From assembly GCF_003325355.1 (NCBI RefSeq), contig NZ_CP030850.1, positions 2,108,001 to 2,172,000 of the forward strand: a stretch of 64,000 bases of DNA, written 5' to 3'. This DNA is from Runella rosea. GTDB taxonomy: Bacteria > Bacteroidota > Bacteroidia > Cytophagales > Spirosomataceae. The position numbers and the translations under genes are program-made. Positions 24,263 to 44,887 of the stretch are shown here, one piece after another; the stretch's first letter is position 1; each line of letters starts with the position of its first letter. The notes below the pieces were generated by a model, which was not told the DNA's origin, did no database searches, and worked only from the letters and a program-made list of their open reading frames with translations.

Positions 24263-24334
24263 GGCCCATTCGTCTAGCGGTTAGGACACGACCCTTTCAC
24301 GGTTGAAACAGGGGTTCGATTCCCCTATGGGTCA
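24263..24334 (+). tRNA. tRNA-Glu (TTC), insertion target of island 1
   Basis: A 72-nt cloverleaf. Acceptor stem GGCCCAT pairs with ATGGGTC, anticodon stem CGACC/GGTTG encloses CTTTCAC (anticodon TTC), and the T arm is GGGGTTCGATTCCCC. The 3' part is the left attachment site of island 1; integration restores the complete tRNA. Confidence 0.95.
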
Positions 24335-24355
24335 CAAAATCGCTCTGCGGAAACG
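24312..24355 (+). repeat. attL of island 1
   Basis: 44 bp, from GGGTTCGATTCCCC in the T arm of tRNA-Glu to GCGGAAACG, identical to 33763-33806. Confidence 0.92.
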
Positions 24356-24532: not shown

Positions 24533-26992
24533 ATGTCTACTATTATTACTCAAACTCCAGAAAATTACCAAGATACAAAATTATACGCTCTACTTTTAAA
24601 AATAAGTTCTCCTAGTGATGGCTTAGTAGATAAAGTGACAAACTTCATCAATACTGTAAGGCCGCTTCAAGAGTTAATAATTGCAGGACCATTTAAAGAT
24701 TATACTCTTCATAATCCGAATCATTCAAAAAAACTACTCCATTTAGCTGGATTTATCATACCTGAAGAGACGCTTCAGAAGTTATCATCATTAGAGATTT
24801 CTGTTCTAATAATGTCTTTTTACCTACATGATTTGGGAATGGTAGTAACTCAAATCGAACGGGAGAGGATAATAAAATCAACTGATTTTATTGAATTTAT
24901 TCAAACTCATACAGAATATGATGAGAAAATGGAACGAATTCGAAAACTTATTTTGGATGATAATGGAAAAACTAGTAGCGATACACTTACTTATGAAACT
25001 ACTTTATATCAATTGACAGAAGCAGCCTTAGCAGATTTTTTAAGACCTCTTCATGCTACAAAATTACGATATGAAGAATTAATAGATACTGTTAAAAAAA
25101 CCTTTGGAAGGAACGATTTATTTGAAGTTTGTGGAGTTTCTTTCGAAAATGAGCTAATTGAAATCTGTGTAAGCCATAATTTAGGAGCAAATGCTTTGAT
25201 TGAAACAAAGGGGATTTATAATGAACGTTTTCAAAGAAATCAATTAATAAATAATCTCCCACTAAACTCTCAATTTTGCGCTGCTGTTTTAAGAATTGTT
25301 GACATTTTAGACTTCGATAAAGAGAGAACACCTAAATCCCTATTTAACTCATTAGGCATTCAAAATAAATTGCTTCCTGGTTTTGAAATATCTTTAAGAG
25401 AATGGAATAAACATTTATCTATTCATTCTATAGCTATATATGACAACGAAATAGTAATTTCGGGAGATAGTCGCCATCCAACGATTGAGCACACTATAAA
25501 AGAGTTCTGTAAGATTATTGAGTCAGAAATAAGAGAGACACAGACGATAATAAATTCGAACTCTCAAGAAGTTCAATTAAAATATAAATTAAATTTACCA
25601 TTTTTAATAAGGGCAAATATTCGTTCTATTGATTATATTTATAAAGATTTTTCTATAAAGCTGAATGAGTCAGCAATTGTGAATTTACTTATGGGAGAAA
25701 ACCTTTATATAGATTCCCCAGTTGCACTTAGAGAGCTTATTCAAAATTCTATTGATGCTTGTATTATAAGAGCTAAAGTAGAAAAAGTTGGCTACAGCCC
25801 ATTGATTAGGATTTCAATTCATAAAGACTCAGATTCTAGAAGCTGGTTAAAAATAATTGATAATGGGATAGGTATGGATGAATATGTACTCTCAAACTAC
25901 TTTTTTAAAATTGGAAATAGTTATTATAGTTCTAGTGATTTTAAGCGATTTTCATTAAAAAACCAAGTTGATGATTTTGTTTCAATATCTCGTTTCGGTA
26001 TTGGCTTGTTATCAGTTTTTATGATAGGTGAATTAATTAAAGTTACAACTAAGAACGCATTTTCACTTAGAAATGACTTTAAGGAAAGAACACTGCTGAT
26101 TGATGGAACTGATTCTTTAGCAGTTGTAACAGAAAAAGAATTTGGAATTCAAGGTACTACAATTGAAGTTCTTTTAAGGAAAGGCCATGACGATGAATCT
26201 TATTCTACAAAACTATACGGCTATATTAAAGAGAATGTTATAAGACCTCAAATTCCAATAGAATTATATGATTCTTCAGGTAAAACTACTATTGTATCAG
26301 ATAATTACATAAGTGTAAATAATAAGATGAATGAAAAATTAAAAAAATTCAATATTGAACTTGTTCAGATTGACCTTAGTAGATTTAGTAATTTATTAAA
26401 GGGAAAATGTATTTTTTATTTCTTTATAAACCCAGATGAAACACTTTGTTATTATGACAAATCAGGTAAATTATCTTGGGGTTTATACCCACTAAAAGAT
26501 ACATATCTTTTTGAAAATTTTGCAGGCGGTAGCAGAATTACAGTAAATGGAATAATGATGAGGTTGAAAAAGATTGGAAGCCTATTTAATATGAAGAATC
26601 GCCAAACAGCAGTAGTTTTGGATATTGAAGTTTTAGGGGTGAAAGATATCGAATATGATGTATCAAGAGATAGAGTTTTTGGTAAAGGTCTCAGTATAAT
26701 CAGAAAAGAAATATTTACCTCAATCAAAAATGGCTTACAAGCTTTAGGTGTATTTGACAGACTAGATGAAGAAACGGTTAAACATCTTGAAATTTCAAGC
26801 ATACGTAAAGTTTCGTCCGAACCGCTTGATTTTGAATTAATGGAAAAGGTAAAGAAGCTTTTACCGTCGGATAGAAAATGGGAAACTGGAATTCATAAAA
26901 AAATTGCTGATGAATTACAGATTGGAAATTATAAAGCATCACAAATTATCAATGCAATGATTAAATTAGGGAAAGTTATAAAACCAGAATAA
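24533..26992 (+). CDS. HD-domain / GHKL (Hsp90-like) ATPase with C-terminal winged helix, island 1 cargo
   Basis: An 819-aa cytoplasmic protein. Residues about 40-330 carry an HD-type phosphohydrolase signature: LHNPNHSKK (His60, His64), YLHDLGM (His99-Asp100), CVSHNLGA (about 217) and RIVDILDFD (about 255). Residues about 390-620 are a GHKL ATPase of Hsp90/MutL/gyrase type: N box LRELIQNSIDAC (about 400), DNGIGMDE (about 443), RFGIGLLSVF (about 488) and a strand GTTIEVLL. The last 50 residues look like a winged helix (IHKKIADELQIGNYKASQII). It is the only gene at the tRNA end of the island and faces away from the replication genes, a typical cargo position. Nucleotide or nucleic-acid processing coupled to an ATP-driven conformational switch is inferred; anti-phage action is possible but unproven. 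Confidence 0.82.
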   Translation: MSTIITQTPENYQDTKLYALLLKISSPSDGLVDKVTNFINTVRPLQELIIAGPFKDYTLHNPNHSKKLLHLAGFIIPEETLQKLSSLEISVLIMSFYLHDLGMVVTQIERERIIKSTDFIEFIQTHTEYDEKMERIRKLILDDNGKTSSDTLTYETTLYQLTEAALADFLRPLHATKLRYEELIDTVKKTFGRNDLFEVCGVSFENELIEICVSHNLGANALIETKGIYNERFQRNQLINNLPLNSQFCAAVLRIVDILDFDKERTPKSLFNSLGIQNKLLPGFEISLREWNKHLSIHSIAIYDNEIVISGDSRHPTIEHTIKEFCKIIESEIRETQTIINSNSQEVQLKYKLNLPFLIRANIRSIDYIYKDFSIKLNESAIVNLLMGENLYIDSPVALRELIQNSIDACIIRAKVEKVGYSPLIRISIHKDSDSRSWLKIIDNGIGMDEYVLSNYFFKIGNSYYSSSDFKRFSLKNQVDDFVSISRFGIGLLSVFMIGELIKVTTKNAFSLRNDFKERTLLIDGTDSLAVVTEKEFGIQGTTIEVLLRKGHDDESYSTKLYGYIKENVIRPQIPIELYDSSGKTTIVSDNYISVNNKMNEKLKKFNIELVQIDLSRFSNLLKGKCIFYFFINPDETLCYYDKSGKLSWGLYPLKDTYLFENFAGGSRITVNGIMMRLKKIGSLFNMKNRQTAVVLDIEVLGVKDIEYDVSRDRVFGKGLSIIRKEIFTSIKNGLQALGVFDRLDEETVKHLEISSIRKVSSEPLDFELMEKVKKLLPSDRKWETGIHKKIADELQIGNYKASQIINAMIKLGKVIKPE

Positions 26993-27048: not shown

Positions 27049-27264
27049 TTATTCCCTTATTTGTCTCCTTCGATAAGCCTTTTGGCAATTATGCGAACAA
27101 AAGGCAGTATCCACCCTACGGGCTTCAAAGTTCACCTTGCAGTAAAGGCACTCTTTGCGGTAAAACATCCCTATCTCCGTTACTTTTCCATAATGTTCGT
27201 AATGAACTTTGTCTTTCTTAACGCTTACAAAATTGTAGTTGCGGTTGCTTTTCTTCTTTTCCAT
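27049..27264 (-). CDS. Small Cys-rich zinc-finger protein
   Basis: 71 aa, very basic at both ends. A four-cysteine cluster CLYCKV...FCSHNCQ (about 39-60) followed by AYRRRQ looks like a treble-clef/zinc-ribbon nucleic-acid-binding unit. It follows the primase-like gene on the same strand, 170 bp away. Not recognised as a named family. It may bind DNA or RNA for the island. Confidence 0.6.
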   Translation of the reverse strand: MEKKKSNRNYNFVSVKKDKVHYEHYGKVTEIGMFYRKECLYCKVNFEARRVDTAFCSHNCQKAYRRRQIRE

Positions 27265-27434: not shown

Positions 27435-28307
27435 TTACCGCATCAAAAAATACTTCGTCAAATAATCGTTTACGTCTTCATAGGGTTTATACAACTCCCT
27501 GCAATCCGTTACGTTTATCCCTGCCATCGCTAGGGATTTCATTCCCGTTTCCCCTCCGCCATCGTTATCAAGGTAGCCATAAACCGTTTGATGCGTTTTA
27601 AGCAATGAGATTGAGGTTGGGATATTGGAAATAGAATTGAATACGATAACATCACAATTCGGTTCTTTGCCTTGCCAAACGATGTATGAGAGAAAATCAA
27701 TAAAGCCCTCAAAAATCAACGCTGTTGAATTATCCGTTCCTTTCATCGTGGTTATCGCTTTGGGGTTGGTCGATAGCTGTACATAAACGTTTCGCAGTTC
27801 TAAACCCTTCAAATCATTTTCAAAGCAAACAGCAAACTGATTTTTGTCGTTGACTTTAAAATAACACTCTTTCAAGTACTTGGAAGCAATGGCAAACGGA
27901 ATGCCTCGTACATTGCCCAAATACGCTATCAAGGCTTTATTTTCCAGTGCCTTTACTTTGAGTACTTCAATCGCTGATTTTTCATTGTAGGGCTTTATTG
28001 AGCCGCTAAAAGAAAAAGAACGGGTTATTCCGTCGAACGCTTCCAGTAATTGAACGGCATTGGCAAAATCACAGGCTTTTAAGCGACGTACTAACGTGAT
28101 TACATCACCTCCTTTGTCGTCGGTCGTAAAGTCTTTAAAAACGTTTTTATGTGGGTTTACAAAAAATGACGGGGAATGTTCGTCTTTGAAGGGAGAATAA
28201 TAAAGCAATTGCCCGTTTTGCTCTTTTTCGGGTTCAATGCCCATACTCGAAAGATAGGCCGTTATCGGTATAGTCTTTAGGCGTTGTATTACTTCGTTTG
28301 GTATCAT
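27435..28307 (-). CDS. Toprim primase-like protein of island 1
   Basis: About 290 aa from ATG at 28307; an in-frame upstream start would add 20 residues that look unlike the family. The N-terminus resembles the CHC2 module of mobile-element primases (YYSPFKDEHSPSFFVNPHKN, FKDFTTDDKGGDVITLV), but the zinc-binding Cys/His are absent, as in many Bacteroidota element primases. The C-terminal half is a Toprim domain: the glutamate in LIFEGFIDFLSY (about 200) and the acidic D-N-D in YGYLDNDGGGETGMK (about 255). It would make primers on the island's DNA together with the helicase at 28632. The iteron array lies between the two genes. Confidence 0.8.
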   Translation of the reverse strand: MIPNEVIQRLKTIPITAYLSSMGIEPEKEQNGQLLYYSPFKDEHSPSFFVNPHKNVFKDFTTDDKGGDVITLVRRLKACDFANAVQLLEAFDGITRSFSFSGSIKPYNEKSAIEVLKVKALENKALIAYLGNVRGIPFAIASKYLKECYFKVNDKNQFAVCFENDLKGLELRNVYVQLSTNPKAITTMKGTDNSTALIFEGFIDFLSYIVWQGKEPNCDVIVFNSISNIPTSISLLKTHQTVYGYLDNDGGGETGMKSLAMAGINVTDCRELYKPYEDVNDYLTKYFLMR

Positions 28308-28371: not shown

Positions 28372-28628
28372 CTTCAAAAGTGCCACTTTCAGCGTTTTAT
28401 CAAAAAAGTGGAACATTTGGAACAAACTGAAAAAAGGCTAAAATTCTGGAACATTTGGAACAGGTTTGGAACAATTTTGGAACAGTATAAATAAATGAAT
28501 ATCAATGATATATATCACTTTGTTCCATTGTTCCATTTTTTTACTCATTTTTGAAAGTGGCACTTTTGAAGCTTTTTTCTGTTCCAAAAATGTTGCAACT
28601 CTGTTCCAAAGGTGTTCCAAATGTTCCA
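28372..28628. other. Candidate replication origin of island 1 (12 iterons around an A+T core)
   Basis: TGGAACA occurs at 28409, 28418, 28447, 28456, 28467 and 28478 (7 bp each). The inverse TGTTCCA occurs at 28521, 28529, 28580, 28602, 28613 and 28622. Between the two arrays lies an A+T-rich core (28485-28520). A perfect 20-bp inverted repeat, 28372-28391 against 28552-28571 (arms contain AAAGTGCCACTTT / AAAGTGGCACTTT), frames the left array and core. Inverted iteron arrays around an A+T-rich segment between a helicase and a primase gene are what replication origins of plasmids and satellites look like. The open frame 28438-28629 here is not a gene. Confidence 0.75.
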
Positions 28629-28631
28629 AAA

Positions 28632-29999
28632 TCAGAGAGAGTCATTTGTACTTTTCCATGATTCAGCATCAAACTTGTGAAAGTTGTAATACGACTTATT
28701 TTGGGGAATCTTACCTAAAAAGGGTTCTTTACTCATTTCGGCAATTTTTCGGCTGTGATAGGTGTAGCGGCCTCTTTCCTCGGACTCTAACTTTAGCTCT
28801 CTTTCTACGGCATACTTGACTTGCTCACGCGTTATATTCTTTAATTCAACCTTCAATTCATCAACGATGTCGGCAATACCAAAGGAAAGTAATTGCTCTT
28901 CGGGGTATATGTCAAACGTGTCAATAATGAGTTGTTTAATCATTCGCCCTACCCTACTGATACTGTTATCGTAGTACAATTGAAGTTGTGCAGTTTGGTA
29001 AACCACAGGAGCAAAGTACATTCGGCTTTCTTTTTTGTAGCAAAGCTTCCTGTTGACCAAAAAATGAAGGAAATGAGGGATTTCTTTTTCTATCAATAAC
29101 TCAATTAAAGGATTGTCTTTGATACCCTTTTCGGCAAATGTAGGCACTTTAAATACTGCCCAACGGGGGTCTCCGCGTTCAATGAAAAGGGCTTTCCCTT
29201 CTTCATTGGAAACAAAAATGAACTTGCCAAAAAAATCAACTTCGGATTGGGCTTTGTTCTTTTCGTTGACCGTTACTTTTCCCGTTTCTGTACTGAAACG
29301 TTTCAACATTTGAGTAATGCCCTTTTTTTCCAATGATGTTTCATCGACAATAATTGCCAGACGTTTTACCCAAACAGAATTAAAATCGCTTTGAAGGTCA
29401 TTGTTGCCTATTTTAATGGCATTATCTTGGAATATCTTATAAACCACGTTGGCAAACGTTGACTTTCCCGTATTTTTTTCCTGAGATTCAAGCAACAAAA
29501 TTGGTAAACGTTCATAAGGATTTGTGTAAAGCAACTGCAAATAATCAAGTGCAAAATCATAATAGGCTTCTCCAAATACGTGCTGAATAATGCCTAAAAT
29601 TGTATTACAATTACCTTCTTTTGGCTTGTGAGTCAATTCACTGTATTCATTATAGAAGCCGTTGATTACCTGTCTGTAGTTGGTGTGAGAGGCGACCATA
29701 CAAAAATCATCATATTTGGAAATGTATTTGATTACTCCGTGGGTATGGTCATCAATGATAGTGCCTTTATTCAGCTTCAAATAATCTTTAAGAGGTTTCC
29801 CTTCTTTATCAGGTCGATACACAATCTTGTAATAACTATCCGCTATCCGGATGTAATTTTTAGCCTTTTCTTTTAAATTTTGTTTGGTCTTTTCATCCTC
29901 TTCCTCAGTGGTAGTACCGCCTTGAATACCTGATGTTTTGGGCTCAGATTTTAGCTTATTAACTTGCTTTTTATCAGGAATATTAGTAGTTTTACTCAT
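28632..29999 (-). CDS. SF3/DUF5906-type replicative helicase of island 1
   Basis: 455 aa. After a charged linker, a helicase domain like that in P4-type phage and plasmid primases: Walker A LLESQEKNTGKST (GKS at 178-180), Walker B LAIIVDE (218-220), then FGKFIFVSNEEGK (sensor-like motif C) and RGDPRWAVFKVP. The C-terminal 120 residues may be DNA-binding (ITREQVKYAVERELKL). No primase active site is visible at the N-terminus, which fits a separate Toprim primase. The gene ends 3 bp from the iteron array, so the protein probably binds it as an initiator-helicase. It starts 100 bp from the integrase stop, with a terminator between. Confidence 0.85.
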   Translation of the reverse strand: MSKTTNIPDKKQVNKLKSEPKTSGIQGGTTTEEEDEKTKQNLKEKAKNYIRIADSYYKIVYRPDKEGKPLKDYLKLNKGTIIDDHTHGVIKYISKYDDFCMVASHTNYRQVINGFYNEYSELTHKPKEGNCNTILGIIQHVFGEAYYDFALDYLQLLYTNPYERLPILLLESQEKNTGKSTFANVVYKIFQDNAIKIGNNDLQSDFNSVWVKRLAIIVDETSLEKKGITQMLKRFSTETGKVTVNEKNKAQSEVDFFGKFIFVSNEEGKALFIERGDPRWAVFKVPTFAEKGIKDNPLIELLIEKEIPHFLHFLVNRKLCYKKESRMYFAPVVYQTAQLQLYYDNSISRVGRMIKQLIIDTFDIYPEEQLLSFGIADIVDELKVELKNITREQVKYAVERELKLESEERGRYTYHSRKIAEMSKEPFLGKIPQNKSYYNFHKFDAESWKSTNDSL

Positions 30000-30101: not shown

Positions 30102-31310
30102 TCATAATTTTGCCCAGGCTTCATTTACCGCGTTGATAGTGGTTTCATCGTGGTATTTAGCATAATGCTTTGTAAGGGTCTGCGTATTGGTGTGACCAGT
30201 AGCATTTTTTAAAATGTCCGTTGGTACGCCCAAATTTGCCAAAAGAGTAGAAAAGGTTGAACGACCTATTCGTGTAGTAAGCGGGAAACGGTCAAATTTG
30301 ATTTGAGCCTGAATAACCTTTAGTCTATCGTTCGCTTTTTGTGCTAATTCAGTAGGCAATAACAAACCCGTTTTTTTACAATGGTCTGAATACATTTCAA
30401 GTATTTTTAGCGCTACAGGTGGTAAAGGCACTACACGCCCTTTATTATTTTTCGTTCGGGGTTGCCTCAAAAGGATAACAGAATCTGAGAGCTTTTCTAA
30501 ATGTTGGGGGCGAAGTACCCTCATATCGGAATGATTAAGACCTGCATAGCAGGAAAAAACAAAAATCCAGCGTACTTTATCCGTTCTTGGGTCTAAATTT
30601 TGCAACCCCTCAATTTGCCGTAACTCATTTAACATGAGAGGTTTAATATTGCGTTCTACGGGGTCTGCTTTGTAAGTACCAAATACATTTCTTTCTGTCC
30701 ACCCATTCAAAATAGCAAAATTAAGAACCCGCTTCATAAACCCTAAATCCTTGTTTATTACCTCTTTACAGTACTTTTTTTGGGTTTTTAGAAATGTCTT
30801 GTATTCAGTGCAAATAATAGGCTGTATTTGGTCTAAAGGCAGATAGTGAGTTTTGTACTTTCGGGTTAAGAAGTCAGCAATATTATTTCTACGAACTCTA
30901 AAACGCCCAAAGGTTATTTTTTTGATTGAACCACTTTCCAGTTCATCTTTACGGCTTTCGATATACGAATCAATACAGCCCAATAAATTGGGGATGTCGT
31001 TTGTCCAGTCCCTTTTATTGGTTACATAGTCAAGCAACATATTTGCATTGATACTTTGCCGTTTTGCTTTGAACGTGTAGTAGATTTCGTTCAAATCTGT
31101 TTCTATCTGCCTGACAAGTGCAGTCTTTTGGTCATTGGGAATAATCGAACGGGTTGCGTTATGCCATCGCTCACCGTCTTCTATCTTTATCCCTATGCTC
31201 CGATAGTTGCTTTCTTTTCCCCCAAATTTGACCGCCATGTGTAGGTGGTTTACCCTTGTCTTAAAATAGGGTTTGGGATTGGTTGATGCTTTTTTTCTTA
31301 AATTTGCCAT
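30102..31310 (-). CDS. Tyrosine recombinase (integrase) of island 1
   Basis: 402 aa, with the Bacteroidota layout: arm-binding N-terminus, SAM-like core-binding domain (about 105-205) and catalytic domain (about 225-395). Catalytic positions: Arg I is replaced by Asn259 (CYAGLNHSD), Lys in RTKNNKGR (about 286-290), the HxxR box reads R347-I-G-R350, then His373 (TGHTN) and nucleophile Tyr383 (KHYAKY). Loss of Arg I is known in IntDOT-type enzymes; the His-to-Arg change in box II is less usual. It should excise and integrate the island at tRNA-Glu. Confidence 0.92.
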   Translation of the reverse strand: MANLRKKASTNPKPYFKTRVNHLHMAVKFGGKESNYRSIGIKIEDGERWHNATRSIIPNDQKTALVRQIETDLNEIYYTFKAKRQSINANMLLDYVTNKRDWTNDIPNLLGCIDSYIESRKDELESGSIKKITFGRFRVRRNNIADFLTRKYKTHYLPLDQIQPIICTEYKTFLKTQKKYCKEVINKDLGFMKRVLNFAILNGWTERNVFGTYKADPVERNIKPLMLNELRQIEGLQNLDPRTDKVRWIFVFSCYAGLNHSDMRVLRPQHLEKLSDSVILLRQPRTKNNKGRVVPLPPVALKILEMYSDHCKKTGLLLPTELAQKANDRLKVIQAQIKFDRFPLTTRIGRSTFSTLLANLGVPTDILKNATGHTNTQTLTKHYAKYHDETTINAVNEAWAKL

Positions 31311-31350: not shown

Positions 31351-31587
31351 CTACTTCCGCGCCAACGGAGTAGGGTTTTGATTAAATAATACTTCAAGTG
31401 GTAATCCGAAATACTTAGAAAGGCTAACAGCTTCATCATAGGTTGGACGTTTTTTTCCTTCTACCAGTTGCCAGAATCGAATGCGGTTTATACCCACGTA
31501 TGGATAAAATTTAGTTGTGGGCTGAAATTTCGTGAGGTACTTATCCTCAAAGGATTGTACAGCCGTTTGTAAGGGTGTTCCTAGCAT
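31351..31587 (-). CDS. Small HTH protein next to integrase 1
   Basis: 78 aa with an XRE-like helix-turn-helix (FYPYVGINRIRFWQLVEGKK, YDEAVSLSKYFGLPLEVLF). Island 2 has a homologue in the same place (44514), sharing the pattern P-T-x-F-Y-x-x-x-G-I-N-x-x-R-F. Its position between integrase and the divergent XRE gene suggests an excisionase or a regulator of integration. It is transcribed towards the integrase, 40 bp away. Confidence 0.75.
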   Translation of the reverse strand: MLGTPLQTAVQSFEDKYLTKFQPTTKFYPYVGINRIRFWQLVEGKKRPTYDEAVSLSKYFGLPLEVLFNQNPTPLARK

Positions 31588-31716: not shown

Positions 31717-32478
31717 ATGAACATTGAAACAAGAATTAAGGAGATAAGAGAATCAAAAAGGATAAAGCTTGCAGAAGTCGCTGCTGTGCTAGAAGTTGAT
31801 GTGTCTAACTACTCCAAACTGGAAAAGAGAGGAAGTAAACTGTCTATTGAGCAGTTAGAAAAAATTGCAAAAGCTCTGGATGTCACGCTGATTGAAATTT
31901 TAAGCGGCAAACCTCAAAATTCGGAACCTTCCCAAAATGAAAAGGCTTTACAGAAACAAAACGAAGAATTAAAGAAACGGGTTGAAGGACTAGAGGACGC
32001 CTTGAAAGACAAAGAACTCATAAATAGAAACTTAACTGAAAAGTTAACAATCTGCGAAGAATACTTAAATGAGATTTTAGAAGGCTTATTTACAGACATT
32101 GCAATAGAAGAAAACCATTTTGGAACGCTAGTTTATTTAGACAACAACAACATTGTTAAAATTACAAACAAAGAGCTTGAGGAATTGTCAAGTGAGAAAT
32201 TAGATGAAATATACAGCCACGATACAACTTATGAATTCTCAGACCATGAAATTGAAGAAACCATGAAAGAACTTTTTACCAATGAGAAACACAGAAAATT
32301 ATCATCGTTAATTATGTGGACTGGAATGATAAAGGATGAGATGTTTGTTAAGTATTTTAAGAAATATATTGTTCATACAAATCCTACTGTACAGCAGATG
32401 ATGCGAATGGTAAAATTTGAGAATAACCCGCTAGGAGTAAAAGGCTTTGATTCAAGAACTGGATTTGAGTTAGATTAA
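31717..32478 (+). CDS. XRE-family regulator with coiled coil, island 1
   Basis: 253 aa. The XRE helix-turn-helix (about 5-65) reads RIKEIRESKRIKLAEVAAVL, SNYSKLEKRG, LSIEQLEKIAKALDVTLIEI. A coiled coil follows (about 75-125), then an acidic domain that I do not recognise. It is homologous to the XRE protein of island 2 (44888) in the HTH, coiled coil and placement. It is most likely the lysogeny-type repressor controlling integrase and replication genes, and the C-terminal domain might sense an inducer. Confidence 0.85.
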   Translation: MNIETRIKEIRESKRIKLAEVAAVLEVDVSNYSKLEKRGSKLSIEQLEKIAKALDVTLIEILSGKPQNSEPSQNEKALQKQNEELKKRVEGLEDALKDKELINRNLTEKLTICEEYLNEILEGLFTDIAIEENHFGTLVYLDNNNIVKITNKELEELSSEKLDEIYSHDTTYEFSDHEIEETMKELFTNEKHRKLSSLIMWTGMIKDEMFVKYFKKYIVHTNPTVQQMMRMVKFENNPLGVKGFDSRTGFELD

Positions 32479-33762: not shown

Positions 33763-33806
33763 GGGTTCGATTCCCCTATGGGTCACAAAATCGCTCTGCG
33801 GAAACG
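33763..33806 (+). repeat. attR of island 1
   Basis: 44 bp identical to the tRNA-Glu 3' end and following bases at 24312-24355. Confidence 0.92.
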
Positions 33807-36553: not shown

Positions 36554-36640
36554 AGAGAGGTGTCCGAGTGGTTGAAGGAGCACGCCTGGAAAGTGTGTAT
36601 ACGGGCAACCGTATCGAGAGTTCGAATCTCTTCCTCTCTG
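36554..36640 (+). tRNA. tRNA-Ser (GGA), insertion target of island 2
   Basis: An 87-nt class II tRNA. Acceptor stem AGAGAGG/CCTCTCT with discriminator G, anticodon loop CTGGAAA (GGA), long variable arm, T loop TTCGAAT. The terminal 12 bases lie in the 13-bp repeat of island 2. Confidence 0.95.
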
Positions 36641-36641
36641 C
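36629..36641 (+). repeat. attL of island 2
   Basis: TCTTCCTCTCTGC at the 3' end of tRNA-Ser, repeated exactly at 45728-45740. Confidence 0.75.
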
Positions 36642-36651
36642 AAAAAACTCA

Positions 36652-36687
36652 AAAACCCCTTAAATCTTGCGATTTGAGGGGTTTTCC
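36652..36687 (+). terminator. Terminator after tRNA-Ser
   Basis: AACCCCTTAAATC / GATTTGAGGGGTT hairpin followed by TTCCC, just inside island 2. The original host terminator is probably the one at 45791. Confidence 0.7.
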
Positions 36688-36949
36688 CTTAAAAACGTTA
36701 CCGATTAGCGTAACTCAAATGTAAAGCCTGCTAACGGTTATTAACGCCTTCCTTGAACGATTAAAGAGTCCAAAACAAACTATTCTAAGATATTTGTAGT
36801 ACTTACAGTATTATTCATTAATGTTATCTATGATTAGGGGAGGATAAACATTCATACCGTTTGATAACTTTTTGATTAAAAGGTAGTATACAATTATAGT
36901 TTCCTATTTTTATAATGAAAACTTAAGTATTATATTAATTTATATTGAA

Positions 36950-38740
36950 ATGAAAGAAATAAAACCTATTTCAACCTCAATACAAACTGAGCTCTCAATT
37001 AGGAATGAAAGTGTCCAAAGAATTTTTAATTTTTACAAGAATGACATTTTCTACGTTAATCGACGTTATCAGAGAAAGTTGATTTGGACTATTGAAGAAA
37101 AACAAAGGTTTATTGATTCAATAATAAACGGTCTTCCCGTTCCATTGATTTTATTGGCAGAAAGTGAAATTGATGGCAAAGATTCTTTCGAAATCATTGA
37201 CGGAATGCAGAGGCTGAATACTATTAACTCATTTATACAAGGTGAATTTAGCTACAATGGACATTTTTTTGATTTAAATACTTTAGTAGAATCAAAATCA
37301 CTACTGGACGCTGAAGAATTAACTCAAAAAGAACCAATATTAAACAGAAAACTATGTGAGCAATTTTCTAGCTATATTCTTCCATTATCAATATATTCGT
37401 TTACAGATTCGAACAAAGTTGATGAAATTTTTATACGGATAAACAGTTATGGACGTCATTTATCTAGGCAAGAATTAAGAGCGGCAGGAACACTAGAGAA
37501 TTTTGGCGATTTAGTAAGATTAGTTTCATCTGAAATTAGGACAGATGTGTCACATGATGACATCCTTAATCTTAAGCAGATGAAAGAGATAAGTATTACA
37601 AATACAGGTTTAGATTATGGAATAAATGTTGATGAAATTTTTTGGGTATCTAATAATATTATTACTAAGGAAATGGTGCGGGAATCTAGGGATGAGGAAA
37701 TAGTCGCTGATTTACTTTCGTCCATATCATTTAGCGAAATACCTGCAACTAGTTCAACAATTCTTGACGAATACTATGGGCTAAAATCGAGCACAAAATC
37801 AGAAGAACTTGACGTTGCCCTTCGTAAAATTGGAAGTAACGAATTACGTAGTCAATTTATTTCTGTGTACAATGTAATAAGGCAAATAATATCAATTTCA
37901 GGAGTTAACTTTCGGGATTTATTATTTAAAGATAATTCACAAAGGATTCCTCGTTATTTTCAAGTTATATTTCTAGCTATACATAAGTTGATGTTTAGAG
38001 AAAACAAGGAGGTAAATAGTTACACTGATTTGATAAAAAAACTTGGTGGATTATCAAACCAAATAAACATAACTGAAGGTGGAAATTGGAGCGCAACCAA
38101 TCGCTCAACAAATATAGATGCTATTGCTGGCATAATAAATTCTTGTTTTAGAGATAAAACTTCAGACCCTGCTACTTTCAAGTGGCTTACCGAGTTCGAG
38201 TCCATATTAATGCAGTCTAAAACAGAACAAGCATCATATGATTTTAAACAAGGATTTACTCGTTTAGATGGCAATAACGTATTTGATGAAGATAATTTTA
38301 ATAAAATTATCTTAACCCTAACTGCAATTGCTAATAATTCACCAAGAAGCAGTGGATATGTTTGTGTAGGTGTTTGTGATAAAAGGAAAGATTCGTTGAG
38401 AATAAAAGAAATTTATGGTATTGAATCACAACCATATCGAAATTTCTTTATTAGTGGTATTGAACATGAAATACCAAGTATTGCCAAAGATTTAGATGAT
38501 TTCTTTAGGCAACTAATACAAAAAATTAAATCTCAACCAATTTCCGATGAGGCTAAAGATTACTTCTCAAAAAATATCAGAATAATAAATTATTTTGATA
38601 AAGATGTAGTTGTTTTCAAAACTAGTTCCTTAGATACACCCATGATTTATGATAAGAAATATTACGTTCGTCATGGAGCAAATATTGATGAAGTAAAGCC
38701 TGAAAATTATGCACACTTTTTTAAATCTTATTCTAAATAA
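36950..38740 (+). CDS. DUF262 protein fused to an AlbA_2/Schlafen-like domain, island 2 cargo
   Basis: 596 aa. The N-terminal DUF262 (ParB/Srx-like) domain is clear: NRRYQRKLIWTIEEKQRFID (about 38-56), EIIDGMQRLNTINSF (81-95; family DGQQR) and EIFIRINSYGRHLSRQELR (about 158-176). A helical middle follows. From about 420 the sequence turns into an AlbA_2-like DNA/RNA-binding fold: YDFKQGF (family EFK), LTLTAIANNSPRSSGYVCVG (family TISAFANT-GG-L-x-IGV), and KKYYVRHGANIDEV (family YYVR-G-S). In known type IV restriction systems (GmrSD, BrxU) DUF262 is paired with a DUF1524 HNH nuclease, which is absent here. A sensor-effector role in defence is therefore inferred. It sits alone beside the tRNA, like the cargo of island 1. 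Confidence 0.8.
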   Translation: MKEIKPISTSIQTELSIRNESVQRIFNFYKNDIFYVNRRYQRKLIWTIEEKQRFIDSIINGLPVPLILLAESEIDGKDSFEIIDGMQRLNTINSFIQGEFSYNGHFFDLNTLVESKSLLDAEELTQKEPILNRKLCEQFSSYILPLSIYSFTDSNKVDEIFIRINSYGRHLSRQELRAAGTLENFGDLVRLVSSEIRTDVSHDDILNLKQMKEISITNTGLDYGINVDEIFWVSNNIITKEMVRESRDEEIVADLLSSISFSEIPATSSTILDEYYGLKSSTKSEELDVALRKIGSNELRSQFISVYNVIRQIISISGVNFRDLLFKDNSQRIPRYFQVIFLAIHKLMFRENKEVNSYTDLIKKLGGLSNQINITEGGNWSATNRSTNIDAIAGIINSCFRDKTSDPATFKWLTEFESILMQSKTEQASYDFKQGFTRLDGNNVFDEDNFNKIILTLTAIANNSPRSSGYVCVGVCDKRKDSLRIKEIYGIESQPYRNFFISGIEHEIPSIAKDLDDFFRQLIQKIKSQPISDEAKDYFSKNIRIINYFDKDVVVFKTSSLDTPMIYDKKYYVRHGANIDEVKPENYAHFFKSYSK

Positions 38741-38742
38741 CA

Positions 38743-38809
38743 ATTTATTTCTTGTACATTAAACAAAAAACACATTCTGAGTTTTTTGTTTAATGTACAA
38801 GAAATAAAT
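38743..38809. repeat. Perfect 29-bp inverted repeat after the DUF262 gene
   Basis: Arms 38743-38771 and 38781-38809 are exact reverse complements (outer end ATTTATTTCTTGTAC), with a 9-nt loop. It begins 3 bp after the stop codon. It may act as a bidirectional terminator or be the remains of a small mobile element. Confidence 0.85.
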
Positions 38810-38894
38810 CAAATTATCTGACAGTAATTTTATGTAATACAATTTGAATAATAACAGAAATATGTTTCGGTTGACTTCTCATATTTTGGATAAT

Positions 38895-39194
38895 TCAGGG
38901 GTAAATAACTGACAGTTGCCTCAACATTGATTTTATCATCCTTCGTGCGCTATCATCCAACAGCGCGGCATAGGACTCATCCAACTCTGGTAAATTACAG
39001 GTGTTGGCAGCATGATTGTATGCTTTGACATACATGACAGTCAGTTTTACAAGGGTGTTTTCTATTTCCTGCAATGAAGGCAGCGCGGAAATATCAACCT
39101 TTTCCATTAATTCGGCTCTCTCAAGCAGTCTTTCAAAAGCATCTTTCAACACTTTCTTTTCTTGAGTGGTAGCCTGTTTTTTTGGTCGTGCCAT
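38895..39194 (-). CDS. Small protein next to the RimK-type ligase
   Basis: About 99 aa from ATG at 39194 (MARPKKQATTQEKKVLKDAF); an in-frame ATG 42 bp upstream would overlap the ligase gene. It is helical, with basic start and acidic middle (PELDESYAALLDDSARRM). No family recognised. It starts 22 bp after the ligase stop, so the two form an operon and it could be a substrate or partner of the ligase. Confidence 0.65.
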   Translation of the reverse strand: MARPKKQATTQEKKVLKDAFERLLERAELMEKVDISALPSLQEIENTLVKLTVMYVKAYNHAANTCNLPELDESYAALLDDSARRMIKSMLRQLSVIYP

Positions 39195-39216
39195 TTTTCG
39201 ATCCGGTTTAAGTTGG

Positions 39217-40212
39217 TTATTTATTCCAAGGTGCATTGAACCAACTTTTAGCGGATGGTATGGCAGCTTGCGCGGTTGCTTCTGCTTCTTCGGGCTTCTT
39301 GGTTTTTTCTACCTTCGTTTCGATGTATTCAACCAAATCGTTAAAATAGTTGTGACCGGTGATGTCGATAATCTTCGTACCGGGGTTGCCGTTCACTTCA
39401 ATAACATACGTTTTGCCGTCCTCATCTTTGATGATGTCAACCCCTGCAAAATCAAGGTTTACCGCTTTGGCCGCTTTGATGCAAATGTCAACGTCGGAAT
39501 CCGATAGTTCAACTTTACGACCGCTACCGCCTTGCGATATGTTAGCCCTAAAATCCTTCTTGCCGGCGCGTTCCATTGCTACGCTTACCTTATCGCCCAC
39601 TACAATAGCGCGTATATCCTTTGAGCCGGCTTTAACAAACTTTTGAATCTTAACATTTGCTTTGAGTCTATACAGGCTTTCAAGTGCAGTATTGGCCGCT
39701 TGTGGTGTCTCAAGGATGAACACGCCTACACCCTGACTGCCATTGAGTAGCTTACCAATAGCGGGAAGGCCGCCTACCTTGTTGATAAGAAAGTCAATAT
39801 GTACGGGGTTAGAGGCGTAGGTAGTAAGGGGAACCCGCAAACCGCGTGCGCTTAGTCGTTGAGTGGTCTTGAGCTTGTTTGAGGCCGTTTCCAGACCGTC
39901 GGCATCTTGTGCGCAATAGATGTCAAGATTGTCGGTTAGGTGTCTTAAAATGCTTGCACCATGAACTAAGCCGCCGCCTATCCTGCTGATGACGGCATCA
40001 TAACTTTTTGCTTTGAGTCTAACGGGACTCTCAAGTGTAGCCGAACCGTTGTAAATACGGTCGTAGCCGCTTTCTGATTCGGAAACAAAAAGGTAAAGGT
40101 CGTCAGGGTTGTGATGCTCAAAGGTGTGTTCACGCTTGGTGATGGCATCAATCAAATGACGTGAGGGTGTACCCGTCGCGAGTACTAGAAAATTGAGGCT
40201 GTTACTACTCAT
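39217..40212 (-). CDS. RimK-type ATP-grasp ligase
   Basis: 331 aa. N-terminal preATP-grasp domain (about 1-110), then an ATP-grasp fold: TTQRLSARGLRVP, lysine in KLLNGSQGVGVFIL (glycine-rich loop), IQKFVKAGSKDIRAIVVGDK (family motif), and the Mg-binding DFAGVDII and VIEVNGNPG. RimK relatives add glutamate or other amino acids to a protein or peptide C-terminus, or form amide bonds in peptide products. A mobile-island location is unusual for a ribosomal modifier, so the target is probably an island or phage protein; this is inference. Its C-terminal 30 residues are an Ala/Glu/Lys-rich tail. Confidence 0.85.
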   Translation of the reverse strand: MSSNSLNFLVLATGTPSRHLIDAITKREHTFEHHNPDDLYLFVSESESGYDRIYNGSATLESPVRLKAKSYDAVISRIGGGLVHGASILRHLTDNLDIYCAQDADGLETASNKLKTTQRLSARGLRVPLTTYASNPVHIDFLINKVGGLPAIGKLLNGSQGVGVFILETPQAANTALESLYRLKANVKIQKFVKAGSKDIRAIVVGDKVSVAMERAGKKDFRANISQGGSGRKVELSDSDVDICIKAAKAVNLDFAGVDIIKDEDGKTYVIEVNGNPGTKIIDITGHNYFNDLVEYIETKVEKTKKPEEAEATAQAAIPSAKSWFNAPWNK

Positions 40213-40581
40213 GGCTATATTTTATTTAAAAGATTGAACAGCCACAAAGCAACAAAATCAACTTTGAAAAAAACAGGACACAAATTTTTGAAAAAATGAA
40301 GGGGTGTTCTAAAAAAAAATGATACTCTTTTTAGCGTATAAATGGGCGGGGTATATTCCCATTTTGTATGGTGGCAATTTCCACTACCGATAAAGTGCGG
40401 GCCACAGTATAGAGTGTAACAGGGTTCTTTATTTGATTGACAAAAAAATAACTACCTGTTTGATAGGTAGTTATCAGGGGTTTTGTTCAAAAACGAGTGC
40501 AAAACGTATGATTTAGAACGTTTTTTTTACTCAATACTTCGTTTTCATGGATTAAAAACGGCTTGCCATTGGTGATTCTAT
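40213..40581. other. Intergenic region of island 2
   Basis: 369 bp without a supported gene. It contains a minus-strand terminator at 40442-40474 for the following gene and otherwise A-rich sequence that probably carries the promoter of the ligase operon. Confidence 0.6.
40442..40474 (-). terminator. Terminator of the 40582 gene
   Basis: On the minus strand, ATAACTACCT / AGGTAGTTAT hairpin followed by seven T. Confidence 0.8.
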
Positions 40582-40893
40582 CTAAATATCAACCTCATTA
40601 AGTAGCTGAAAGGCCGTTTTAATGGTTTTTAACTTTCCTTTCAAAATTTCGCTTTCTTCTTCATTGGTTGCCTGCCATTGGTAATACTGTTTCTTTTCGG
40701 CCTCCCGTTTGCGGGTGACTTCTTCAAGCCGGGCCGCTTTTTTGGCGTAGTCTGCTATGATAAACTCAATGACGGCTTGACCCGTTTTTAGTCCTTCCTG
40801 CTTCATTACTTGGTTCATTATCTCGACCAAGTTCTTTTTATCTTCTAACCCGCGTAGGGTGATGGTTTTAAAGTCTTTGGATTCTGCTATCAT
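40582..40893 (-). CDS. Small coiled-coil protein, island 2
   Basis: About 103 aa from ATG at 40893 (MIAESKDFKTITLRGLEDKK); a longer frame exists upstream. The start resembles a ribbon-helix-helix strand (KTITLRGLEDKKNLVEIMNQ), followed by a long charged coiled coil (about 45-90). This would suit a plasmid-type DNA-binding or mobilisation accessory protein. No relaxase is nearby. Function unknown. Confidence 0.55.
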   Translation of the reverse strand: MIAESKDFKTITLRGLEDKKNLVEIMNQVMKQEGLKTGQAVIEFIIADYAKKAARLEEVTRKREAEKKQYYQWQATNEEESEILKGKLKTIKTAFQLLNEVDI

Positions 40894-41084
40894 TTTTTTT
40901 GTGTTTGGGGTTGATGGCCGCGTAGAGCTGTTGACCAGGTTATGAAAGTGATTTGTTTTTGATAGCAAATTGACGGCTGCAGGTTAAGCCTGGGCAAAGG
41001 GTCGAGTCTGTTTTTGCTATCAAAGTAGGGGTTTAAAACCTTACCCCTAAAAGAAGAAAAGCTCTTATTAAAAGCTCTTATTAA

Positions 41085-41306
41085 CTATTCATAGAAAATG
41101 GGGTCAATCCTGATATTTCGCTCTCTGGTGTTTCCCTCAAAGTAAGCGGCTGTAATGATTTCCCCTTTTGCGATTTCCTTCTTTATGACTTCAATTGCTT
41201 TACCCATGTTGGCAACTTTAAAAGTTAGTTGTTGGGTTGCGTTTGCGTTTTGTGGGTTTGGCCTTCTGACGTAAAACTTTACTTTGGCTTGTTGGGTCTT
41301 TTCCAT
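41085..41306 (-). CDS. Small basic protein downstream of the iterons, island 2
   Basis: 73 aa from ATG at 41306 (MEKTQQAKVKFYVRRPNPQN). It has a strand-rich start and ends IRIDPIFYE. It is transcribed away from the iteron array. Not recognised; similar small proteins with VKFYVRRP starts accompany replication genes in Bacteroidota elements, from memory only. Confidence 0.5.
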   Translation of the reverse strand: MEKTQQAKVKFYVRRPNPQNANATQQLTFKVANMGKAIEVIKKEIAKGEIITAAYFEGNTRERNIRIDPIFYE

Positions 41307-41463
41307 GTTCGATGGTAGTTGATTTGAGCTTTTTAATTTGAGCTTTTGAGGGCTTTTGGGGTGAAAGGTTGCGGCACTTCGTTTTCTTGGTTTTGTGCAA
41401 CTTTTCACCTTTGCGGTTTATTGGTTTTGTGCAAATGGTGTAGAGAATTTTTGATTTTTACTT

Positions 41464-41669
41464 ACTTAGTTACTTTTTATCTGTAAATCGTTGATTATCA
41501 GTACAAAATCTAAGTAAGTAGGTGAATTTTGTTAAAAATCAAGTTACTTAGTAGAGTATTAAAGACAGACTAAGTAACTAAGTAGGACTAAGTAGGTTGT
41601 ATCTTACTTAGTATTTTTAAGTATAACTAGTTGATAGTTAAATACTTATAAGTGACTAAGTAACTAAGT
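41464..41669. other. Candidate replication origin of island 2 (ACTAAGT iterons)
   Basis: ACTAAGT occurs at 41569, 41577, 41587, 41655 and 41663; its inverse ACTTAGT at 41464, 41546 and 41606; a CTAAGTA variant at 41510. That is nine copies in about 205 bp of A+T-rich DNA, at the 3' end of the VirE-type helicase gene, the same relative position as the iterons of island 1 but with a different sequence. Confidence 0.65.
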
Positions 41670-42869
41670 AAGTTGATTTTCAATTTCAATTAAATAATAA
41701 CCCTTCCTTTGAGTGCCAAACTGTTGTAAATACTTCTGTTCTTTCTTCCATTTCAGACTGCCCAACGCTTTACCAACTTGTACTTCATGCACCTTACCAT
41801 ATCCTTTATTTCTAAAGTATTCGCTTATGTCAACGCATTGGTAAAAATTAGCTTTTGGGTCGCTTTTCTCGGCACTTTTGAAGTGTTTGGTTATGAGGTT
41901 CATTTCAGAGGTTACACGCATAAACATTCGGTTTATTAACTCCGTTTGGTTAATATCATCATGCGATAATTCCCCCTTAAAACCGCCTTTTAGAAGTGCA
42001 TAGGCTTGCGCCCAAACGTTGTTTATATCAATTTGACAATACCCGTCTTTTCCCCCGTTATCGTGGTTGATATTCAGTACGTTAAAGATTATCCAACGGA
42101 CTGAACCCGTTTCATCCGTCAAAAACTCGGAGTTGTTGGTACTTGCTACAAATGAAGCCCTACGGGGGAACAAAACTTCTATACCAGAGAACAACGGAGC
42201 ATATTTAACGCCACTTTCTGACAGGGTTGATTTAAACTCATTGTTCAGGTCTTTTTTGTCAAATTGTGCTAATTCATCAAGATTGATAAGGAAGTTTTGA
42301 ACCAACGAAAATTTACTTTGCCGGCCGCCGTGAAAGTCGTACCCCTTTTTGTAGTATGGCTTTAATTTATCAGGTACTAAAAAATCAAAAAATGACGTTT
42401 TGCCGTCATGCTGTTTGCCCACAAACGTAAAGCAATGTTTGTTAAATTGGTTACTTCCCAAGGCTTGAGCAACGACGCGAACTAACATTTTTTTAAACAT
42501 TGCTTCAAACCATTTTTGGTCATCGGTTTTAACAAAAGTTGACAATTGTTGGATGTAGTCCGGCTGTGAATTATCCCACTTGCTAAGACTCTCAAAGTAT
42601 TCTTTGAAGGGGTCGTATTTGGGTATAATGGAAGAACCCAAAATAGCCTTTAATTCGCTATCAAAACGGGTATAACCTGCTTTCATAATGTTGTAACTCA
42701 AATCAGCCTGATTAATTGGCGCAAATGGTTCTTTACGGCCTTTGGGGCGTGCTTCAACGGTGTTTGTAATGACATTTATACGGATTTCGTTTGTTCCTAG
42801 AAGGAAATCTTCTATCTCATTAATCCGTAAAGTTTTACCCTTAACTTTTTGTTTTTTAGTAGTTTCCAT
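41664..42869 (-). CDS. VirE-type helicase of island 2
   Basis: 401 aa of the virulence-associated E/DUF5906-like family. Walker A is FTFVGKQHDGKTSFF (151-161), Walker B FLINLDEL (193-200), then FPRRASFVASTNNSEFLTDE and GSVRWIIF, the arginine-finger-type segment. The family supplies the helicase of primase-helicases in phages, plasmids and satellites. No primase domain is visible. Its 3' end overlaps the first iterons. It is not close in sequence to the helicase of island 1, though the layout is the same. The start is ATG 42869; a hairpin lies upstream. Confidence 0.85.
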   Translation of the reverse strand: METTKKQKVKGKTLRINEIEDFLLGTNEIRINVITNTVEARPKGRKEPFAPINQADLSYNIMKAGYTRFDSELKAILGSSIIPKYDPFKEYFESLSKWDNSQPDYIQQLSTFVKTDDQKWFEAMFKKMLVRVVAQALGSNQFNKHCFTFVGKQHDGKTSFFDFLVPDKLKPYYKKGYDFHGGRQSKFSLVQNFLINLDELAQFDKKDLNNEFKSTLSESGVKYAPLFSGIEVLFPRRASFVASTNNSEFLTDETGSVRWIIFNVLNINHDNGGKDGYCQIDINNVWAQAYALLKGGFKGELSHDDINQTELINRMFMRVTSEMNLITKHFKSAEKSDPKANFYQCVDISEYFRNKGYGKVHEVQVGKALGSLKWKKEQKYLQQFGTQRKGYYLIEIENQLT

Positions 42870-42920
42870 ATATTTGCTGTGTAGAAACGAAAAAATTAGT
42901 TGTTTAAAAAGATTGTACGA

Positions 42921-42948
42921 ACGCCCACGGTTGCCCTACCGTGGGCGT
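42921..42948 (-). terminator. Hairpin upstream of the helicase gene
   Basis: ACGCCCACGG / CCGTGGGCGT, 10-bp perfect stem and 8-nt loop, in the 85-bp gap between the helicase and the 66-aa gene. It may terminate the integrase transcript. Confidence 0.55.
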
Positions 42949-42954
42949 ATCTGT

Positions 42955-43155
42955 TTACAGGGATACTCTGCTGGTTTTAGTCGCCTCCTGAACCTTTAGA
43001 AGTGCTTCTTCTGCTTCATATAGTTCTTGCTTTAAAACAGCCTTTTCAAGTGTTAGAGAACCTATTACACCAAACAATGATATGATATAATTTTTGAGCG
43101 TATTTACATTGTTGGGTAAGTCATCGAGCTGAGATTGTAAACTTGGTGTATTCAT
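42955..43155 (-). CDS. Small coiled-coil protein coupled to integrase 2
   Basis: 66 aa (LEKAVLKQELYEAEEALLK coiled coil). Its ATG overlaps the integrase stop (ATGA), so it is translationally coupled, which argues for a real gene. Function unknown; an accessory of recombination is possible. Confidence 0.65.
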   Translation of the reverse strand: MNTPSLQSQLDDLPNNVNTLKNYIISLFGVIGSLTLEKAVLKQELYEAEEALLKVQEATKTSRVSL

Positions 43156-44435
43156 CCTGCATCGCTAAGTTTAATGTCATTGTTTTTGAAGTCATTAATA
43201 ATCCGTTCCGGGCGTGTTACGGTGTAATGTGTTTGGGTTGTGAGGGTGTTTGTATGCCCCATCATTGCCGAAACTGACTCCATTGGTACACCTTTGGTTA
43301 AGTAGTAGGTGGCCGCTGTACGACGGGCTACGTGTGAGGTTAGGCGTTTTGTCATGCCCATAACCCCGGCCAATTGTTTGAGGTAGTTATTATACTTTTG
43401 GTTGCTTATAATCGGCAACAATACCCCTTTACTGATTCGGGCGGGATGGTCTTTAAACAGGTCAATAATTCGACGGGCTTCGTGGTTTATGGGTACAATT
43501 GATTCTACGTTTGTTTTCTTACGGTTTATCTTGATGTACTCATTGCCTGTTTTTTCATCGAGCAAGATATTAGCCGTAGATACTCTCAAAAGTTCGGCAT
43601 AAGAAAGGCCGGTATAGCACTGGAATAAAAAGGCTTGACGTATATGGTCAAGAATAGGGGCAAAAATTGTAAAGCTTTGCATTTCTTCCATTTCTGATTC
43701 AGTCAAAATTTCGCCCTTTATCTTTTCCAATTTTTTACGATAGTTCATAAATGGATTTCGGTTTATCCATTCATTTTCAAGGGCATAGTTAAGAACCCGT
43801 TTGAAGTGTTGGACTATGTGTGAGGCTACATTATGGCTGTAACTATGCTCATTTTTGAGGTATAATTGGAAGCGTTTGGCATCGGCCGGGGTTATGTCGT
43901 CCAATTCAGCATTTTTGCCATATTGCACTTGAGCAAACCCCTTTATACAGGTGTTCCATTTGGCTACTTTTTGGATTACGTGTTTGCCACATTCCCCCGC
44001 TTTAAACCGCTCTTTGGTCAACTCAAAAAATAGCTTGAGGCAGCTTTCTAAATTGGGAGTATCGGAGTTTAACATTTGCCCATTGGCAACCTGCCAAATT
44101 GCCTTTAAATTGATTGGGCGGGCTGTTAGCTTAAATTCGGCAATGGTGGCATTTAGTTTGGCTCTCAAATCTTGGAGTACCAAAGTAGTAGCCGGGTTGT
44201 ATTTGATGCTCAAGGTCTCTTTATCAAATTCAGCCCGATTACAGATTATTCCCGTTGAATAGTTACGGCTTATTTTGTTGTGTGTCAGTCGAACAATAAC
44301 ACTCACCGTTTTTGCTTTTGCTTCGCTTTTTCGTACCCAAAACATGATACTTACGGTATTAGGCCGTGATTTTGTTTTACTACGTTCGGCGGCTCTAACC
44401 TGTTTTGTTAGATGACTTTTTTGTACTTTTGACAT
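43152..44435 (-). CDS. Tyrosine recombinase (integrase) of island 2
   Basis: 427 aa, Bacteroidota type: arm-binding N-terminus, core-binding domain (about 128-225), catalytic domain (about 245-410). Arg I is Ser278 (CYTGLSYAEL), the Lys is in NRKKTN, box II is HVAR (His368, Arg371), His394 in MMGHTN and nucleophile Tyr404. Ser in place of Arg I is also found in IntDOT. It should act at tRNA-Ser. Confidence 0.92.
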   Translation of the reverse strand: MSKVQKSHLTKQVRAAERSKTKSRPNTVSIMFWVRKSEAKAKTVSVIVRLTHNKISRNYSTGIICNRAEFDKETLSIKYNPATTLVLQDLRAKLNATIAEFKLTARPINLKAIWQVANGQMLNSDTPNLESCLKLFFELTKERFKAGECGKHVIQKVAKWNTCIKGFAQVQYGKNAELDDITPADAKRFQLYLKNEHSYSHNVASHIVQHFKRVLNYALENEWINRNPFMNYRKKLEKIKGEILTESEMEEMQSFTIFAPILDHIRQAFLFQCYTGLSYAELLRVSTANILLDEKTGNEYIKINRKKTNVESIVPINHEARRIIDLFKDHPARISKGVLLPIISNQKYNNYLKQLAGVMGMTKRLTSHVARRTAATYYLTKGVPMESVSAMMGHTNTLTTQTHYTVTRPERIINDFKNNDIKLSDAG

Positions 44436-44473
44436 GGTTTTGACCTGTTTTCGTTGGACATGGTGAAACTACT

Positions 44474-44507
44474 AAGGCCGCCACTGGTGAGACAGTGCGC
44501 GGCCTTT
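44474..44507. terminator. Strong hairpin between integrase 2 and its HTH gene
   Basis: AAGGCCG...CACTG-loop-CAGTG...CGGCCTT, a nested stem of 7 and 5 bp, GC-rich, 40 bp upstream of the integrase start. It could attenuate transcription into the integrase. Confidence 0.5.
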
Positions 44508-44513
44508 ACTGTG

Positions 44514-44738
44514 TTAATCGTTAAATTCATCTGTACTTACCTTGAAAAATTTGGCAAGTAATTGGGCTTCCTTTAATGTCATATCAAGTTCCCCACGTAG
44601 AATCATACCAAATCGTTTTTGGTTAATCCCTGTTCGTTGGTAAAACTGAGTGCTAGGCTTCCATTTGCCGCAAATATGTTCCTCATACTTGCTAACTACC
44701 CTTTGGAGCGGGGTTTTAGGGTGTTCAATCGTTGTCAT
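44514..44738 (-). CDS. Small HTH protein next to integrase 2
   Basis: About 74 aa from ATG at 44738 (an upstream ATG at 44768 is possible). It has an XRE-like HTH (FYQRTGINQKRFGMILRGEL, LKEAQLLAKFFKVSTDEF). Homologous to the 78-aa protein of island 1. Likely excisionase or regulator. Confidence 0.75.
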   Translation of the reverse strand: MTTIEHPKTPLQRVVSKYEEHICGKWKPSTQFYQRTGINQKRFGMILRGELDMTLKEAQLLAKFFKVSTDEFND

Positions 44739-44766
44739 AACTGAATATATGGAGTTATTTGTCTGC

Positions 44767-44835: not shown

Positions 44836-44887
44836 TTAAAAATAAGTATTCGTAGTATTGTATAATAATTCCATAAATACGGACAAA

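Follow-up and report, generated by a model that had tools for sequence, protein, structure and literature searches.

The segment at positions 28372-28628 of a 64,000-nucleotide stretch of the Runella rosea genome (contig NZ_CP030850.1, positions 2,108,001 to 2,172,000; hereafter the window) very likely constitutes the replication origin of a genomic island of 9.45 kb, here called island 1, and would be served by the SF3 helicase encoded directly beside it. The segment carries two inverted arrays of a heptamer repeat (iterons) around an A+T-rich core, and the likely reader of these iterons is the adjacent helicase, not the primase encoded on the other side, because the array follows the helicase gene through natural exchanges between islands, which is the strongest evidence available. 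The design is very probably of the kind known from phage-inducible chromosomal islands (PICIs) and Staphylococcus aureus pathogenicity islands (SaPIs), with exchangeable initiator-origin cassettes, in a family of Bacteroidota islands. The features on which the argument rests are as follows:

28409..28484, forward strand: iteron array A, six copies of TGGAACA
28485..28520, no strand: A+T-rich core (A+T content 83%) at which the DNA presumably melts
28521..28628, reverse strand: iteron array B, six copies of TGTTCCA plus a one-mismatch copy at 28591-28597
28372..28391, forward strand: left arm of a perfect 20-bp inverted repeat, containing a dyad at 28377-28389
28552..28571, forward strand: right arm of this repeat, containing a dyad at 28554-28566 that is conserved in four Runella-type origins
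28632..29999, reverse strand: SF3 helicase (DUF5906), presumed initiator and putative iteron reader
27435..28307, reverse strand: DnaG-like primase of 290 aa with Zn ribbon and Toprim_2 domains (Pfam; DNA primase in PHROG), its start set at the ATG that follows a leader common to loci L184, L185 and L186

An earlier note, made from the sequence of the window, had described twelve heptamers, six per orientation, around an A+T-rich 36-bp core exactly between helicase and primase, and this description is borne out. TGGAACA lies at 28409, 28418, 28447, 28456, 28467 and 28478, and its complement TGTTCCA at 28521, 28529, 28580, 28602, 28613 and 28622, so that both arrays together span 220 bp. A thirteenth copy with one mismatch (TGTTGCA, 28591-28597) restores a register of 9-11-11-11 bp on the helicase side. 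Array B ends at 28628, on the immediate 3' side of the helicase gene with its stop codon at 28632-28634, and the primase ATG lies at 28307. Within the window, TGGAACA occurs nine more times, never in the remainder of the island. TGGAACATTTGGAACA is found three times in the whole genome (7.16 Mb), every time in the iteron region.

Such a cluster is hardly expected by chance. In 3000 dinucleotide-preserving shuffles of 28372-28628, with low-complexity words excluded, no heptamer reached more than six copies, and TGGAACA itself appeared on average 0.11 times and at most twice. This null replaced an earlier one of 5000 Markov samples, which was dropped since it had kept low-complexity words; there, some heptamer reached at least 12 copies in 52 samples, presumably owing to words made of A-runs. 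When the window was scanned in 257-bp frames with a step of 20, the iteron region was its densest heptamer cluster, followed by a region in a second island of the window (island 2, see below).

The link between array and helicase emerges from natural swaps. Locus L178, from a sister genome, contains an island of 8.5 kb that occupies the same attachment (att) site in tRNA-Glu. Its integrase and primase are each 89% identical to those of island 1, its 71-aa zinc-finger-like protein 83% and its 78-aa XRE-like protein 58%, and no match to the island 1 helicase is present. Instead, L178 encodes a 509-aa D5_N/DUF5906 helicase, accompanied by six copies of AGTGAC, three per orientation and 9 bp apart, an array that is invisible to a heptamer scan alone. 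The exchanged part is bounded as follows:

29961, no strand: left-hand boundary of the exchange, where nucleotide homology to L178 stops, located within the helicase gene after 13 codons
28336..28337, no strand: right-hand exchange boundary, where homology to L178 restarts (BLAST end at 28337) and the BLAST alignments to L212 and L213 end (28336)

Loci L212 and L213 share with island 1 the XRE-like protein (91-94%), the primase (86 and 82%) and the zinc-finger-like protein (90-92%); their integrase is a different one (28-30%). Their helicases are of the VapE type, 63% like that of island 2, and come with TACTCGG-type arrays. In L072, helicase and array are 74% like island 1 over 29881-28373. 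After a further 50 bp, the sequence matches the 3' flank of the island 2 array at 98% identity for 224 bp. The gene that comes next is not a primase but the 107-aa one of island 2 (the contig ends there), and the integrase resembles its island 2 counterpart at 35%. Similarly, L071 retains the array together with a helicase of 78% identity, with integrases at 25-27% and a primase at 37%. Judged from these sequences, the array travels with the helicase gene and not with the primase or the regulators, and in L178 not with the integrase either. The loci compared show helicase gene and array behaving as one evolutionary cassette, which stays in place while its heptamer changes and is found on different backbones.

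This association extends well beyond the swapped loci. Of 291 genomes sampled from the order, 29 have a match to the helicase (the R. rosea genome counted). The closest named relatives found for it lie on contigs of Runella, at 87, 78 and 75% identity, and in Emticicia, at 54 and 53%. A phage collection yielded just two weak matches, both to records of one phage. Ten to 13 exact, largely convergent copies of TGGAACA are present in Runella L070, L071 and L072 as well as Emticicia L073 and L074. When four Runella-type sequences are aligned, iteron columns are invariant in 71 of 84 cases and spacer columns in 56 of 126, as are all 13 columns of the dyad at 28554-28566; the Fisher value (4e-9) is only indicative because columns are not independent.

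For a broader count, 42 and 83 loci were combined (125), of which nine were dropped for a short 3' flank and eight as duplicates, leaving 108 with the window included. At least five exact copies of one heptamer between -60 and +440 from the helicase stop were found in 76 of these 108 non-redundant loci. Under the same criterion, control regions scored in 1 of 101 cases upstream and in 1 of 88 at +1500 to +2000, and this last positive is L064, whose own array sits there. A scan anchored on the primase, respecting orientation and covering the best 30 loci of a much longer match list, gave four or more copies in 25 loci and five or more in 16, against none of the 30 controls at either threshold; L210, which was mis-sliced in these counts, had eight copies in a separate scan. 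The array persists where the neighbouring genes have moved apart: in L074, about 1 kb separates it from the helicase and it still precedes the primase, while in L095 about 4 kb lie between array and Toprim gene. The interval in L074 (11249-12235) resembles, by eye, a C5-methyltransferase gene. Also counted among the loci are L075, L076 and L077, entries labelled as circular plasmids from Bacteroides/Phocaeicola TSDC17.2 strains, which carry this helicase. They were set aside as proof of autonomous circles, because L075 contains a chromosomal-type gene (mannose-1-phosphate guanylyltransferase) and the records are possibly mislabelled contigs.

The heptamers seen include TGGAACA, TAGAACA, AGTTACA, TGTAACA, GTCAACA, TTCATCA, CTCATCA and CGCATCA, and many share the ending CA. 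By eye, the inner copies in Runella, Emticicia, L037-L039, L053 and L057 converge on the centre, mostly in steps of 10-12 bp, with outer pairs spaced 8-9 bp. These outer pairs are reversed in L037-L039, L053 and L057 and not in Runella; hence, at least two geometries exist. The earlier note had also drawn attention to the 20-bp inverted repeat, each arm of which contains the dyad AAAGTGSCACTTT (28377-28389 and 28554-28566). The repeat is indeed perfect, but across the related loci it does not appear as a conserved element of the origin design: among 12 of them, both dyads are present in L070 and only one each in L071 and L072, with no exact copy in the other nine. The dyad at 28377-28389 recurs in L070 and is absent from L071 and L072. 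That at 28554-28566 does not vary among the four Runella-type origins, where its position relative to the helicase stop is +64 to +66; Emticicia and seven other loci checked have no exact copy. This conserved dyad inside the array, AAAGTGCCACTTT, may be the site of a second factor.

Several observations weigh against an origin read by the helicase. Helicase and array are exchanged in isolation only in L178, the integrase being changed as well in L212 and L213. Fewer than five exact copies were found in 32 of the 108 loci, and L178 itself would miss this threshold since its six copies are of a hexamer. The copies in L004 point nearly all in one orientation, and those of the CTCATCA group are mixed. 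The core is A+T-rich yet not extreme for the island, in which 3.3% of all 36-mers are equally A+T-rich. Furthermore, sliding partial correlations between helicase sequence and hand-assigned heptamer, calculated for 31 sequences including the window (11 of the first 42 loci were left out, their array being absent or unclear or the protein short), were highest, if weakly, at residues 31-110 and not in the C-terminal winged-helix-like part. No recognition domain is claimed here because sequence kinship confounds the correlation. Nevertheless, the proposal of the earlier note that an initiator binds here to start replication gains support from arrays with changed heptamers in the same place, the joint exchange of helicase and array, the stronger conservation of iterons than of spacers, and the match to PICIs.

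The best fold match of the helicase, and its only sequence match in the Protein Data Bank (PDB), is the C-terminal region of the primase-polymerase of phage NrS-1. In NrS-1 the solved region (305-718) is part of a larger protein, whereas the island helicase stands alone. The SaPI5 primase-helicase is also among the top structural relatives. In the favoured reading, the island would excise, the SF3 helicase would bind the inverted iteron arrays and, as suggested by its fold and the SaPI precedent, open the A+T-rich core and load as hexamers, and the Toprim primase encoded by the next gene would make the primers. Two hexamers could load in opposite directions on the convergent arrays, and bidirectional replication of the island is therefore plausible.

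Island 1, of about 9.45 kb, lies between perfect 44-bp repeats, and the identical att sequence is found in the sister loci L178 (two copies) and L179. Its minus-strand gene run comprises the XRE-like protein, integrase, helicase, iteron region, primase and zinc-finger-like protein. The remaining features are:

24312..24355, forward strand: left att repeat, the 3' end of tRNA-Glu (24263-24335) plus 20 bp
33763..33806, forward strand: right att repeat, a perfect 44-bp match to the left one
24533..26992, opposite to the minus-strand run: cargo gene with HD-CE and HATPase domains (domain matches)
27049..27264, reverse strand: zinc-finger-like protein of 71 aa, part of the conserved backbone (read by eye)
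30102..31310, reverse strand: tyrosine integrase (profile match)
31351..31587, reverse strand: small XRE-like protein of 78 aa, possible excision or regulatory factor (label by eye)
31717..32478, forward strand: divergent HTH_3 regulator, possible island repressor (domain match)

Pfam gave no match for either the 71-aa or the 78-aa protein. The former is 83-96% identical in L178, L070, L212 and L213; the latter is 43% identical in L070, in addition to the values given above. The cargo protein has no PADLOC match and might represent an uncatalogued defence gene. The cargo of the sister island (L178:8902-9948) matches the PADLOC candidate defence family PDC-S31; the cargo genes of this backbone therefore differ between genomes.

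Could the array serve another purpose? It is quite improbable that the helicase or an island regulator uses it as an operator to control copy number and the primase gene, with the replication start at another site. The array is placed ahead of the primase, within the run of helicase and primase genes, which would suit such a role, and plasmid initiators often both initiate replication and autoregulate. However, an operator would need less than twelve sites arranged as two convergent arrays around a core, the gene that follows the array in L072 is not a primase, and the arrays persist despite the gaps of about 1 kb from the helicase (L074) or 4 kb from the Toprim gene (L095). Binding by another protein in place of the helicase, be it the primase, the integrase at arm sites, or a partition, mobilization or host factor, is more doubtful still and can be considered highly improbable. 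The conserved extra dyad suggests that a second factor may bind, but the primase and the zinc-finger-like protein remain 82-92% identical in L178, L212 and L213 while array and helicase change completely, and the integrase remains at 89% in L178 despite the changed array. Conversely, L071 keeps helicase and array with strongly divergent integrases and primase. Exact iterons are missing from the rest of the island and hence from the vicinity of the att sites, and no relaxase/Mob or ParB domain was recognised by Pfam in scans that covered the nine named island proteins.

A further reading sees a decayed origin, left by a former replicating satellite or mobilizable unit that is now stuck. In its favour, no packaging, capsid or transfer domains were recognised in the scanned island proteins. 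This reading is nonetheless unlikely, given that the helicase, primase and integrase frames are open, the att repeats are perfect and the iteron columns are more conserved than the spacers.

An active origin read by the helicase would have close counterparts in known systems. According to excerpts from PMC6092414, Gram-positive PICIs have their origin in the stretch directly 3' of the gene for replication initiation, those E. coli PICIs that are depicted always have two iteron sets around an A+T-rich region, rep and ori of EcCICFT073 sustain a plasmid, and such an organisation is found in no other known bacterial replicon. Island 1 shares the placement of the putative origin directly 3' of the presumed initiator gene and the two iteron sets flanking an A+T-rich stretch. 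It likewise is a small att-flanked island with an integrase and divergent regulators, it uses a specific att site (44-bp repeats at tRNA-Glu, where sister islands also reside), and its putative initiator is an SF3/D5-type helicase like SaPI Rep. In contrast, its order is int-rep-ori-pri with the primase after the origin, whereas SaPI helicases are, in the portion of PMC10061031 consulted, fused to or preceded by the primase. The region thus fits a PICI-type origin, while the whole element is not established as a PICI, given the different gene order and no known helper phage. Iteron plasmids of the Rep_3 type differ in having a winged-helix initiator; the candidate here is an SF3 helicase, and no Rep_3 match was obtained among the scanned proteins.

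From integrase to Toprim, the gene order is the same in mobilizable Bacteroides units with a MobV relaxase, one of them on pBUN1. They run integrase, DUF5906 helicase, gap, Toprim and MobV, and the gap of about 250-275 bp between helicase and Toprim holds short arrays. These differ from island 1, in which no relaxase was recognised. Across the 125 loci scanned, with duplicates and short loci included, MobV was matched in 21, none of them among the first 42. On Bacteroides uniformis pBUN1, this module and its MobV relaxase (L078:7935-11949) have a beta-lactamase gene as neighbour. These units resemble mobilizable elements of the NBU/Tn4555 kind and probably belong to them. PMC6764341 expands NBU1 as non-replicative Bacteroides unit 1.

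The window itself harbors a second island with an array:

36629-45740: island 2, some 9.1 kb long, integrated at tRNA-Ser and bearing a 13-bp repeat
41664-42869: island 2 helicase, VapE type
43152-44435: island 2 integrase
41463-41670: island 2 array, nine copies of CTAAGTA directly 3' of the helicase gene

Like island 1, island 2 is integrated at a tRNA gene, and its array borders an SF3 helicase gene directly on the 3' side; it differs in the VapE-type helicase, the heptamer and the mixed orientation of the copies. This second array can be regarded as origin-like. Island 2 also encodes, at 36950-38740, a GmrSD_N protein that matches NsnA in PADLOC and, below threshold, Schlafen AlbA_2; it is probably defence cargo.

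In a 2017 review (PMC5704250, sections consulted), the maintenance of excised mobilizable islands was headed as an unexplored world, replication of excised integrative and mobilizable elements (IMEs) was described as never studied, and the helicase type of island 1 was not listed. A literature search judged by titles and the beginnings of abstracts, with many subscription papers outside its scope, returned no paper on iteron origins of Bacteroidota islands. For this island family, a concrete origin, its likely reader and a set of natural swap experiments are now described. The many helicase-heptamer pairs, with array sites that change together, open the recognition between initiator and site, and its evolution, to direct tests, and from the cassette swaps one would expect islands to show incompatibility with each other. 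Tentatively, it is possible that Bacteroidota islands, including the MobV units named as non-replicating, replicate via exchangeable helicase-origin cassettes, in which DUF5906, D5_N and VapE branches plug into a common backbone at a constant junction ahead of the primase leader. If NBU-type units share this origin, the name 'non-replicative' would be wrong. Under the cassette reading, a single exchange could alter the replication specificity of an island and perhaps its compatibility with resident islands.
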